This document shows, piece after piece, positions 11,062 through 55,957 of a stretch of DNA of 64,000 bases. The notes beneath the pieces were generated by a model. That model saw nothing but the letters and a program-made list of their open reading frames with translations, made no database searches and was not told where the DNA came from. A program made the position numbers and the translations under genes. The stretch lies in the NCBI RefSeq assembly GCF_000374405.1, contig NZ_KB894240.1, positions 69,285 through 133,284 of the forward strand, given 5' to 3'. Source of the DNA: Riemerella columbina DSM 16469 (lineage in GTDB: Bacteria; Bacteroidota; Bacteroidia; Flavobacteriales; Weeksellaceae). The number at the start of each line of letters is the position of its first letter. Within the stretch, counting starts at the first letter, position 1.

Positions 11062-11069
11062 TACATTTG
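11062..11069 (+). promoter_or_regulatory. Probable promoter -7 box (TACATTTG) of mgtE
   Basis: TACATTTG matches TAnnTTTG and ends eight bases before the ATG at 11078. No TTG element is found at the expected distance upstream, so this is a single-box match. Confidence 0.4.
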
Positions 11070-11077
11070 TTGATTGA

Positions 11078-12413
11078 ATGAAGAATCCCATGGAAAACCA
11101 CAAACTACAAGGACAGCACCCTGCGGATATCGCAGAACATTTGATAGAATTGGACGACAAAAGTCGTTATATTTCATTTTTGATGTTGTCCAAAGACCTT
11201 AAAACAGAGGTCTTTCCGTATTTCGAAACGAATATCCAACAACAGATTATCAAATCTTTGGGCGATAAAGAATTATCCGAAATGCTCAACAATTTAGAAC
11301 CCGATGACCGTACGGCAATTTTAGAAAATTTCCCTGATGAACTCATCAAATATTCCGTGAATTTACTCAATGATAGTGAGAAAGAAATTGCACTAAACCT
11401 CATTGGCTACGACAAAGATTCCATTGCCCGACTGATGACACCACTCTATGTACAAGCCAAACCACAATGGACGGTGCAACAGGTGCTTAGCCATATCAAA
11501 AAAACACGGAAAAAACGCCGAAACCCTCACTTATATTTATGTAGTTGATGAGCAAAATCGTTTGATAGATGATTTAAAAATAGGACAATTGCTTTTAGCC
11601 GACAATGACACACCCTTGACTGATTTGATGGATAATAATTTCATTAGTTTGCTTACAACCACCTCATTAGAAGATAGTTTCGCAACTTTTGAAAAATACG
11701 ACCGTTCGGCGCTACCCATCACTACCGAAAAAGGGACATTAGTAGGAATTGTTACTTTTGATGATATTTTGGAGAAAATTCAAGATGAAAACACCGAGGA
11801 CATTCAGAAGTTCGGGGGTATGGAAGAGTTGGATTTGTCTTATACCCAAACGCCTTGGTTGGAGTTGGTTCGCAAGCGTGCTGGTTGGCTGATTATTCTC
11901 TTTTTAGGAGAGATGCTCACGGCATCAGCGATGGGGTATTTCGATGACGAAATTGAAAAAGCTGTCGTTTTAGCCCTATTCGTTCCGTTGATTATTTCCA
12001 GTGGAGGGAATTCAGGTTCGCAAGCCGCTTCGCTAATTATCCGCGCAATGGCGTTGCAAGAATTACGCCTAAAAGATTGGTGGTATGTGATGAAAAAAGA
12101 AATCATCTCAGGTTTGGCTTTGGGAGGAATTTTGGGAGCGATCGGTTTCCTTTGTATTTTGGTTTGGCAATCCACAGGTATTTATGATTATGGCGAGTAT
12201 TGGATTTCGATAGCCTTATCCGTTTCTATTTCACTGATATTTATTGTGTTGTGGGGAACACTTTCAGGCTCACTTATTCCGTTTGTACTGCGAAGAGTAG
12301 GCTTAGACCCTGCGACTGCCTCAGCACCTTTTGTAGCCACCTTGGTCGATGTAACGGGATTGATTATTTATTTCTCAGTAGCAGCATTGTTTCTCAGTGG
12401 GAAGTTGCTCTAA
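11078..12413 (+). pseudogene. mgtE: Magnesium transporter MgtE, interrupted by a +1 frameshift
   Basis: Two overlapping frames together make one MgtE. The first (11078-11548) gives the N domain (GQHPADIAEHLIEL, LEPDDRTAILENFP, SIARLMTP) and then runs into lysine/arginine-rich nonsense after HIKK. The second continues the family sequence from KKHGKNAETLTYIYVVDEQ through two CBS domains (ALPITTEKGTLVGIVTFDDIL) into five membrane segments with the SSGGNSGSQAASLIIRAMA selectivity motif. The shift maps to an A7 run at 11498-11504; one A fewer restores a protein of about 445 residues, the usual MgtE length. The rest of the gene is free of stops. It is either a recent mutation, a reversible homopolymer switch or a sequencing error. 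Confidence 0.88.
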
Positions 12414-12420
12414 TACAAAT

Positions 12421-12439
12421 TATCGGTTTAAAACCGATA
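12421..12439 (+). other. 19-base palindrome behind mgtE
   Basis: TATCGGTTTAAAACCGATA is a perfect palindrome eight bases after the mgtE stop, directly followed by the terminator. Its role is unknown; it may simply add to termination. Confidence 0.4.
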
Positions 12440-12441
12440 AA

Positions 12442-12480
12442 AACCGAAAGATTCTACGAGAATCTCTCGGTTTTTTGTTT
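12442..12480 (+). terminator. Terminator of mgtE
   Basis: AACCGAAAGATTCT and AGAATCTCTCGGTT pair over 14 positions with one mismatch around a 3-base loop and are followed by TTTTTTGTTT. A strong intrinsic terminator in plus orientation. Confidence 0.9.
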
Positions 12481-12527: not shown

Positions 12528-12552
12528 ATAAAACTTTAAATACCAATTGACT

Positions 12553-15489
12553 ATGAAAAAGCAACTTTTGATATGGATCATCACGCTACTTTCGGTAGTG
12601 AGTTACGCGCAAACGGCAAAATTAGAGGTTTTCGATAAAGGAAAATCACAATCAAAGGAAACGGTGGTCCTCAAAGATATTCGTTATGATGTAAAAGTGT
12701 CGGGAGATTTATCTACCACGATTTGCACAATGCTTTTTCAAAACAAAACCCAACGAATTTTGGAAGGAAAACTAACCTTTTCTCTACCTAATCAAGTGGC
12801 GGTTAGTGGTTATGCAATTGATATCAACGGAAAATTGCGCGATGCCGTACCCGTAGAAAAAGAAAAGGCGAAGGAAGTGTATGAAAGCGTCAGAAAACGC
12901 CGCATCGACCCAGGAATGATTGAGAAGGTGGAAGGAAATAATTTCCGTACACGAATTTATCCTATACCAGCCAATGGTTCGCGTACAGTGCAAATCACTT
13001 ATAATATGGAGTTGGCAAAACAAGGGCAAGGCATTCAGTATTATTTGCCTTTGGACAAAGCCCAGATGTTTGAGCATTTTGAGTTGAATGTAGAAGTTTT
13101 TGAAAATATACAAACGCCTCAATTGGTAGAAAATCCCGATGGTAGTTTTGCTTTTCAAAAGAATGGAAGTGTTTGGACTGCCTCAATCAAAAAAGACAAC
13201 TACCAACCTGCAAACGATTTAAGAATCGCAATACCCACACCCGCCAATTATTCGCAGTCGGTAATGCAACCCGCTGAGGGCGGACATTATTATTTTCTGT
13301 CGAATGTCGTAGTGCCAACGGAAACGAAAGCCAAAGCCAATCCGAAAAAAATCGCGATTGTTTGGGACAATTCATTGAGCGGTTTACAAAGAAATCATTC
13401 AAAGGAATGGGAATTATTAGACACTTATTTTCAGAAACTTCAGAATGTGGAGGTCGATTTATATTCATTGAATATCTATTGGAAATCACAAGGAACTTTT
13501 AAGGTTAAAAACGGAAATTGGGACGCTCTAAAACAGCAATTGCAACAAATGGTATATGATGGAGGAACGGATTACGGACAATTGCAACCCATCAAGGCGG
13601 ATGAAATTTTATTTTTCTCTGATGGAATAGCCACTTTTGGAGCGCTAAAATTCCCTTGGCAGACCAAAACCTATACGATAGCGAGTCAGCCGAAGGCTAA
13701 TTTTGGGCAACTGCAATGGATGGCAAGGACTACGGGTGGCGAATGGATTAACTTAAACCAAATCAACACGCAAAAAGCCCTTGATAAATTGACCATACAG
13801 CCGTTGAAATTTTTAGGAATTAAAGAAACTACAAAAGTTTCGGAGCAATATCCATCCTTGCCAACATCGGTAGATGAGTCCTTTTCTATTGCAGGAATTG
13901 TCAATCAACCCAAAACGACGCTAACTCTGTTGTTTGGCTACGGCAATACGCCTACTATTGAGAGAACCCTAACACTTGATGCGAACCAACAATCGACCAC
14001 CGATTGGAATATTGCACAATTTTGGGCACAAAGAAAAATTGCAGAATTGGAACTTTTCTCTGACAAAAATCAAGAGGAAATCAAAGAAATTGGAAAAACT
14101 TTTGGTATCGTTACCCATAATACCAGCCTGATGGTTTTGGAGAATGTCAATGATTATGTCAAATATAAAATCACGCCACCCAGCGAACTTTTGGTAGAGT
14201 ACAATCGTTTGATAAAAAATCAACAAAATGAAATTTCAGAAGAAAGAGTCGCCATTATGTCCGATGCCGAAGATATGATTGAAGACCTTAAAAAATGGTG
14301 GAATACGGATTTTAAACCTCAAAAGAAATATCCAAAGCCTAAGACTGAGGCAGAAGTTCCGCCGCCAGCAACTGTAGAATTGGATGCTGCTGTAGATATG
14401 GTAGTGGAAGAAACTTCATCTATTACAGCAAATGCTGCCGCTAGTAAAGAAGCATCTGAATTGGAAGAGGTGGTAGTTACTTCCACAGTAACTTCACAAG
14501 CACTTGAAGGACAGTTAGCAGGCGTTAGTATTTCAAATGATAAAATAGTAAACAGTAATAAAAAAGCAAAGATTACCACCATAGAAATCCAGTCAGATCA
14601 AGATTATTTGCAAGGATTGAATGAGCAATCTTCAGAAAATTTATACACTCGTTATTTGTCTATTCGTGAGAAATACCAAACCACTCCATCGTTTTATTTT
14701 GATATTGCTCAATTGCTGTTTAAGAAAAACAATCGTGAGAAAGGTTTGTTAGTATTGAGTAGCGTTGTGGATTTGGATATTGAAAATGAAGAGTTGTACA
14801 AATTACTGATGTACCGACTCAAAGAGCATAAGTTTTATGATAAAGAATGGTATATCGCAGGCAAGGTTTTAGAATGGCGACCTTTCGACCCACAAAGTTA
14901 CCGCGATTATGCGTTGGCTTGTGAAGATGCAGGAAAACTACAAGAAGCCTTAGACAATTTTTATAAAATGCTTACCAATACCTATACCCAAGAATTGTCC
15001 GATCGTGATCGTGGAATTGAAGAAACGATTTTGATGGAAATTAATAGCTTGATTGCAAGACACAAAGGTAAATTAGATACAAGTGATATCAATCCAAAAT
15101 TGATTGCCGATTTGCCTGTAGAAATTCGAGTAGTGCTCAATTGGAATAAAGATGATACCGATATCGACCTTTGGGTAATTGATCCAAAAGGCGAAAAATG
15201 TTTTTATTCTAATAATCGAACAGCCATAGGTGGAAGGTTGAGCAGAGATTTCACTTCTGGATTTGGTCCTGAACAATTCATTTTGAAAAAGGCCATCAAA
15301 GGAAAATACCAGATAAAAACCAACTTCTTTGGTGAGCGACAAACCAGTATTTCGGGACCTACAACACTGATGGCAGAGATTTATATCTATTATGCGTCTG
15401 GACAACAAGAACGAAAAATTGTTGTGTTCCAAAGTGAAAAAGAAAAGGATAAAGAAGATGGTGTTCTTATCGGAGAGTTTGAGTTTTAA
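12553..15489 (+). CDS. Secreted VIT/vWA-domain protein with C-terminal TPR-like and DUF2135 regions
   Basis: ATG 12553 gives 978 residues with a signal peptide ending near SYAQTAK. A VIT domain follows (about 20-140; ISGYAIDINGK-like SGYAIDINGKLRDAVPVEKEKAKEVYE and IYPIPANGSRTVQITY). A vWA-like region has DNSLS at 272-276, matching the DxSxS metal site, with FFSDGIATFG later. A variable linker (about 590-690, Ala/Glu/Thr/Ser-rich) contains EEVVVTS at about 638. Then come helical TPR-like repeats (about 690-840) and a DUF2135 domain from about 857 (NWNKDDTDIDLWVIDPKGE). VIT-vWA proteins of this kind are found in the envelope of Bacteroidota; function is unknown. It stands alone, with its own promoter. 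Confidence 0.85.
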   Translation: MKKQLLIWIITLLSVVSYAQTAKLEVFDKGKSQSKETVVLKDIRYDVKVSGDLSTTICTMLFQNKTQRILEGKLTFSLPNQVAVSGYAIDINGKLRDAVPVEKEKAKEVYESVRKRRIDPGMIEKVEGNNFRTRIYPIPANGSRTVQITYNMELAKQGQGIQYYLPLDKAQMFEHFELNVEVFENIQTPQLVENPDGSFAFQKNGSVWTASIKKDNYQPANDLRIAIPTPANYSQSVMQPAEGGHYYFLSNVVVPTETKAKANPKKIAIVWDNSLSGLQRNHSKEWELLDTYFQKLQNVEVDLYSLNIYWKSQGTFKVKNGNWDALKQQLQQMVYDGGTDYGQLQPIKADEILFFSDGIATFGALKFPWQTKTYTIASQPKANFGQLQWMARTTGGEWINLNQINTQKALDKLTIQPLKFLGIKETTKVSEQYPSLPTSVDESFSIAGIVNQPKTTLTLLFGYGNTPTIERTLTLDANQQSTTDWNIAQFWAQRKIAELELFSDKNQEEIKEIGKTFGIVTHNTSLMVLENVNDYVKYKITPPSELLVEYNRLIKNQQNEISEERVAIMSDAEDMIEDLKKWWNTDFKPQKKYPKPKTEAEVPPPATVELDAAVDMVVEETSSITANAAASKEASELEEVVVTSTVTSQALEGQLAGVSISNDKIVNSNKKAKITTIEIQSDQDYLQGLNEQSSENLYTRYLSIREKYQTTPSFYFDIAQLLFKKNNREKGLLVLSSVVDLDIENEELYKLLMYRLKEHKFYDKEWYIAGKVLEWRPFDPQSYRDYALACEDAGKLQEALDNFYKMLTNTYTQELSDRDRGIEETILMEINSLIARHKGKLDTSDINPKLIADLPVEIRVVLNWNKDDTDIDLWVIDPKGEKCFYSNNRTAIGGRLSRDFTSGFGPEQFILKKAIKGKYQIKTNFFGERQTSISGPTTLMAEIYIYYASGQQERKIVVFQSEKEKDKEDGVLIGEFEF

Positions 15490-16261: not shown

Positions 16262-16403
16262 TCCTCCTATGTAATATATTTTTTATGAGGTTTCAATAGA
16301 TATTTTTAACAAAAATCTTAAATAATTTAAGCAAAGATATAAAATTTATCAATGGAATTGATTTAAAATAATTTAGAACCAATAATTTATATCCACTCCA
16401 TCC

Positions 16404-16528
16404 GCGTGAGGGTGGAGGGCATTGTGGGAGTTCCTTTTTTGGCTTTTTAGGAAAGCCAAAAAAGAACGACTGCCCGTAGACCGACGCTCTGCCTTTCCTC
16501 TAAGAAAGGCAGAGGGGCACGCCCAAAA
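16404..16528 (+). repeat. Dispersed structured repeat, copy 2 of 3
   Basis: Reads GCGTGAGGGTGGAGGGC, then a strong hairpin (GTTCCTTTTTTGGCTTT pairing with AAAGCCAAAAAAGAAC), GCCCGTAGACCGACGC, a second hairpin (CTGCCTTTC/GAAAGGCAG), and GGGGCACGCCCAAAA. Ends GCGTG and CACGC can pair. It is more diverged than copies 1 and 3 but keeps the order of blocks. It ends 18 bases from the stop codon of the minus-strand ltrA gene. Confidence 0.72.
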
Positions 16529-25058: not shown

Positions 25059-25103
25059 AAAAAGGGTTTTAAATATTAATAATCCAATTGGCTACACGGT
25101 TCG

Positions 25104-25231
25104 TTGCGTGAGGGATAGAGGCGGCATCCTTTTTTGTCTGTCTGAGCTTAGCGAAAGGCTGACAAAAAAGATAGAGCCGAAAGCCCGACCCGAGTGGCTG
25201 CCTTAGCCTCGGCGAGGGGCACGCCCAAATC
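25104..25231 (+). repeat. Dispersed structured repeat, copy 3 of 3
   Basis: Reads TTGCGTGAGGGATAGAGGC, then a hairpin (CTTTTTTGTC pairing with GACAAAAAAG), AGATAGAGCCGAAAGCCC, GACCCGAG, and a closing GCGAGGGGCACGCCCAAATC. Ends GCGTG and CACGC can pair. It shares long exact blocks with copy 1 (2553-2666, opposite strand). It ends four bases from the stop codon of the minus-strand beta-helix lipoprotein gene. Confidence 0.8.
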
Positions 25232-55090: not shown

Positions 55091-55957
55091 CTAGTTTAAA
55101 TTTTTAAATATAGGTTGGAAAGCTTCAAGCTTCTTTTCTAACCAAAGGCTCACCCATTCTTCTCTTTGCACTTTATGCTTTAAAGTTAAACCTTCTGCGG
55201 TGCAAACTTCCGTAATATCATCTACATCAAAAAAGCATAATCCTGATAGCAATAAACTACCACCTTTCTCCAATACCGATACATAAGTTGGGATATCCGA
55301 AATTAAAATATTACGGTTGATATTCGCTAAAATAATATCAAAAGTTTCATCGCCCAATAGTTCTGCTGTACCTTCTTTTACTGTAATGTCTAACTGATTG
55401 CGATCGGCATTTTCTTTTGAATTTTCTACCGACCATGGGTCTATATCAATAGCTAAAACTTCTTTAGCCCCTTTCATCTTAGCAAACAGTGCTAACACCG
55501 AAGTGCCACAGCCCATATCCAATACTTTTTTACCCTCAAAATTCATATTGAGCATTTGCTGAATCATCAAATAAGTCGTGGCGTGATGCCCTGTCCCAAA
55601 AGACATTTTTGGTTGAATAACAATTTCGTAGTCGTAAGATTGTGGTTCGTGAAACTCAGCACGAATATAGACTTTGTCCTCTACATTAATGGGCGAAAAA
55701 TTCTTTTCCCATTCTTCATTCCAGTTGATATTGGGCATTTCCTTATAAGAATATTGGATCTCAACTTGCTCCTGACTAAAAAGATATAATGATTTTAAAT
55801 CTTCTTCATTAAATTCCGATTTCGGAATATAGCCCAAAATACCATCTGGCTCTTCGGTAAAACTATCAAATCCAATGGTTATCAATTCTGCCATTAGAAT
55901 CTCACTCCAAGGCTCGGTAGGCTTTACTTTAAAATCGAACTCTAAATAATTATTCAT
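55091..55957 (-). CDS. prmA: Ribosomal protein L11 methyltransferase PrmA
   Basis: ATG 55957 (MNNYLEFDFKVKPTEPW) gives 288 residues and is the family start; six extra codons upstream look non-genic. The AdoMet-binding motif VLDMGCGTSVLALFA is preceded by QPKMSFGTGHHATTYLM and followed by DIDPWSVENSKENA, ILANINRNIL. It trimethylates L11 at lysines and the N-terminus. A TACATTTG box lies 15 bases upstream. Confidence 0.95.
   Translation of the reverse strand: MNNYLEFDFKVKPTEPWSEILMAELITIGFDSFTEEPDGILGYIPKSEFNEEDLKSLYLFSQEQVEIQYSYKEMPNINWNEEWEKNFSPINVEDKVYIRAEFHEPQSYDYEIVIQPKMSFGTGHHATTYLMIQQMLNMNFEGKKVLDMGCGTSVLALFAKMKGAKEVLAIDIDPWSVENSKENADRNQLDITVKEGTAELLGDETFDIILANINRNILISDIPTYVSVLEKGGSLLLSGLCFFDVDDITEVCTAEGLTLKHKVQREEWVSLWLEKKLEAFQPIFKNLN

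Follow-up and report, generated by a model that had tools for sequence, protein, structure and literature searches.

Why should one magnesium transporter gene be spread over two reading frames? In the window analysed here, a 64,000-nucleotide stretch of Riemerella columbina DNA taken as a whole, successive parts of an MgtE protein are encoded by two overlapping frames of the plus strand. The initial annotation read these as a single mgtE gene with a single lesion, an A7 run that is one A too long, and with no other stop in the second frame. The locus comprises the following features.

11062 to 11069, plus strand: TACATTTG, a weak match (motif only) to TAnnTTTG, the −7 promoter element of Bacteroidota, shortly 5′ of mgtE
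11078 to 11548, plus strand: ORF1 (156 amino acids), the MgtE N domain and the start of the CBS linker, then ~15 out-of-frame residues (open reading frame, Pfam, TIGR00400, orthologues)
11448 to 12413, plus strand: ORF2 (321 amino acids), the CBS domain and the MgtE membrane domain, with true homology from ~11502 (open reading frame, Pfam, TIGR00400, orthologues)
11498 to 11504, plus strand: A7 run, the frame-change site, one base longer than in relatives with the same codons (sequence, relatives)
12421 to 12475, no strand assigned: tandem hairpins and a T run, resembling an intrinsic terminator at the end of mgtE (fold z-score −6.1)

Domain matches agree that the two frames belong to one gene. 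ORF1 matches Pfam MgtE_N (7.5e-22), ORF2 matches the Pfam CBS (2.1e-11) and MgtE (2.8e-36) families, and the full-length model TIGR00400 is divided between them, with model positions 26-163 on ORF1 and 158-447 on ORF2. The letters place the change of frame at the A7 run, and ORF2 is free of internal stops throughout. Comparison with relatives suggests that the true start of ORF1 is the ATG at 11090.

The promoter match upstream is considered weak because TAnnTTTG-type sequences occur in the window at about chance frequency (97 observed, 89.8 expected). Directly downstream of mgtE lies a gene for a large protein with VIT and DUF2135 domains (12547-15489, plus strand). Elsewhere in the window, a Flavo-1 RNA (Rfam RF01705) scores above the gathering threshold at 25101-25194 on the plus strand, and a related copy lies in the opposite orientation at ~2536-2664. 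Both window copies match the same places in the congener G005, and Flavo-1 is therefore an intergenic element dispersed through this genus. A second intergenic repeat, at 16393-16528, matches several other places in the congeners G001, G003 and G005, and corresponds to no Rfam family above gathering score.

We compared both parts with orthologous loci from the named genomes and from further relatives, and in all ~110 distinct orthologues a single frame spans the two parts, with the junction at IKK/(H,Y,V)G; none is split at the A7 site, in agreement with the placement of the lesion by the initial annotation. Relatives with the same codons at the junction (L123 and L133), defined as an isoleucine codon with a final C or T, followed by two AAA codons and CAY GG, carry A6 where the window carries A7. 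Relatives that use an ATA isoleucine codon carry A7 or A8 at the same place and remain in frame. The tract is thus an ordinary Ile-Lys-Lys stretch, rather than one conserved as a switch, that is one base longer in the window genome alone.

The age of the lesion was assessed from substitution patterns. Old pseudogenes are expected to show relaxed selection and additional lesions, whereas new ones need not. In the second part, dN between the window and G005 over 297 codons is 0.141, matching that of intact pairs such as G033 and G005 (0.142). The corresponding dN/dS for the window and G005 is ~0.04, a pair for which dS is near saturation, and it ranges from 0.04 to 0.11 across window pairs; dS is mostly saturated, and these ratios cover only the pairs for which one could be computed. 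End branches in a maximum-likelihood tree are likewise similar (window 0.17, G005 0.18, G033 0.17). Neither further lesions nor relaxed selection are seen in the window mgtE by dN, dN/dS or end branches. Because its copy carries no excess of amino-acid change, the lesion is either very recent or a sequencing or assembly error, much as the initial annotation had proposed. The gene seems to have been under selection until just now, a pattern expected of either a very recent mutation or a consensus error.

The main rival to a real mutation is that the cell has an intact mgtE and that the additional A arose as a homopolymer error in sequencing or assembly. A lone one-base homopolymer lesion with no other decay, between halves that are both under normal selection, is what such an error would produce. 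We examined how often breaks of this kind occur in the assembly. A homology check of the window, covering ~45 kb with open reading frames of relatives, found mgtE to be the only frame switch supported on the sense strand, and a coding-frame scan of 304 coding segments in 306 kb of the genome gave mgtE as the clearest frameshift signature and the one clear break. Here the coding signal in the upstream frame ends 21 codons short of its stop, and in the downstream frame it begins 25 codons ahead of any start. Follow-up of further doubtful pairs, including candidates on C46 and at window 3231/3889, showed each to consist of complete, separate genes of different families, and frame-break signals at window position 55500, together with many ‘stop’ signals, were read as shadow or antisense open reading frames of relatives.

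Of the 279 homopolymer runs of at least seven bases that the sampled 306 kb contains inside long open reading frames, only one coincides with a clear detected break, as judged by a scan of uncalibrated sensitivity, and the assembly therefore has a low rate of homopolymer errors. The assembly thus does not look prone to such errors, an argument for a real mutation but not proof of one. With no second lesion in the gene, the sequence itself cannot be expected to separate the two, and we regard a consensus error as a serious alternative that is nonetheless distinctly less probable than a real mutation.

The initial annotation also raised the possibility that the homopolymer acts as a phase switch. 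In its broader form, this reading holds that A7 is one state of a reversible A6/A7 replication-slippage switch, or that transcriptional slippage or +1 ribosomal frameshifting yields two purposeful products. The run does lie exactly at the frame junction, the entire downstream frame is under normal constraint, and slippage is known to rescue interrupted genes, as in Citrobacter rodentium tssM, where the proven site is an A11 run (PMC4256274). However, in many bacterial genomes slippery A/T runs are visibly selected against only from nine bases upwards (PMC1088944), and the window run is shorter than this. Nor is A7 unusually long for the genome: there are 209 coding-strand A runs of at least seven bases in long open reading frames of the 306 kb, 172 of them A7 and 37 longer.

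Conservation also argues against a switch. The tract is not conserved among relatives, whose in-frame A runs reach A8, and no conserved tract with frame-changing length variation was found at the junction among the ~110 relatives. Passage from ORF1 to ORF2 requires, by frame arithmetic, a ribosomal shift of +1 (or −2) instead of the common −1, which rules out programmed −1 frameshifting. A literature search for an mgtE homopolymer switch gave four hits, none of them relevant as judged by title and abstract. The phase-switch idea fares poorly because A7 is commonplace in intact genes, tract length shows no conserved variation, and the same gene in a genome of a neighbouring genus is broken at another site (see below). 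We consider switching or recoding in any form very improbable, and a tract that turns MgtE on and off or gives two products, with a second MgtE carrying the off state, a little more improbable again.

Least probable of all is separate production of the two halves, with ORF2 serving as a deregulated channel that lacks the N domain. ORF2 does have an ATG at 11448, within ORF1, and MgtE stripped of its N domain still reaches the surface of vertebrate cells (PMC3435302). Reports on N-domain deletions differ, one describing a more open channel and another stunted growth ascribed to deficient uptake (PMC3435302). However, separation of the N domain from the channel is absent from all ~110 orthologues, and ~18 non-homologous residues would follow the ORF2 ATG and change the CBS linker.

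Whether the loss of this protein would matter depends on what else the genome encodes. Two MgtE types, A and B, are distinguished by how long the membrane-domain match is and how high it scores, and the interrupted gene is of type A. The genome also carries an intact type-B MgtE of 449 amino acids, ~28% identical to ORF2, and an intact CorA of 302 amino acids. The earlier concern that loss of MgtE would alter magnesium uptake unless another transporter exists is weakened here because these two proteins are present; magnesium uptake should not be assumed to be lost in this organism.

The two types are unevenly distributed in the genus. Both A and B are present in G005, only B in G001, G003 and G004, and only A in G002, whose type-A copy clusters in the maximum-likelihood tree among other genera, apart from the window copy, suggesting transfer or replacement. 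Across genomes of the family (f1), occurrence of MgtE-A and MgtE-B is patchy, often with one per genome. An independent single frameshift in type-A mgtE, at a different site and within the membrane domain, is found in a genome of the neighbouring genus g29.

L246 (G100:C1:1368000-1372000), ~2145-2164: frameshift in the type-A mgtE of G100, whose two pieces are the only PF01769 matches in that genome

From the losses across the genus and the G100 frameshift, loss of one MgtE is recurrent and tolerated. The window lesion, the patchy distribution of the two types and the G100 break may be viewed together as a small example of loss striking two redundant MgtE types in turn.

On present sequence evidence, the type-A mgtE of the window is probably a redundant Mg2+ transporter gene that a frameshift has only just turned into a pseudogene. 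A single very recent +1 slippage, most likely at replication, would have lengthened an A6 tract to A7. Translation of ORF1 would then stop 44 bases past the run, at 11548, leaving only the soluble N domain, a product presumed to lack function. ORF2 could still be translated, but the channel domain would arise from it by weak reinitiation, if at all, and as a channel without the N domain. Loss of MgtE-A would be tolerable because the intact paralogous MgtE and CorA remain. The finding is an ordinary one: the redundant transporter gene has either acquired a frameshift recently or been given one by a single-base error in the consensus. It has little import beyond annotation, in which this mgtE copy needs a frameshift label.

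Compared with the MgtE Mg2+ channel family (TIGR00400; PF03448, PF00571 and PF01769), the window gene has all three domains, conserved and in order, and is 80% identical overall to the closest member, from a congener; it differs in that its reading frame is not continuous, being interrupted between the N and CBS domains. Genes rescued by transcription slippage, C. rodentium tssM (A11; PMC4256274) and Thermus thermophilus dnaX (A9; PMC1088944), likewise have two halves in different frames that meet at an A run, whereas the window run is shorter and unconserved. The window gene also resembles pseudogenes created by frameshifts in homopolymer runs. A one-base tract change, a truncated product, a redundant function and intact orthologues in relatives are common to both, and the window mgtE differs from such genes in nothing except that it is free of further decay.
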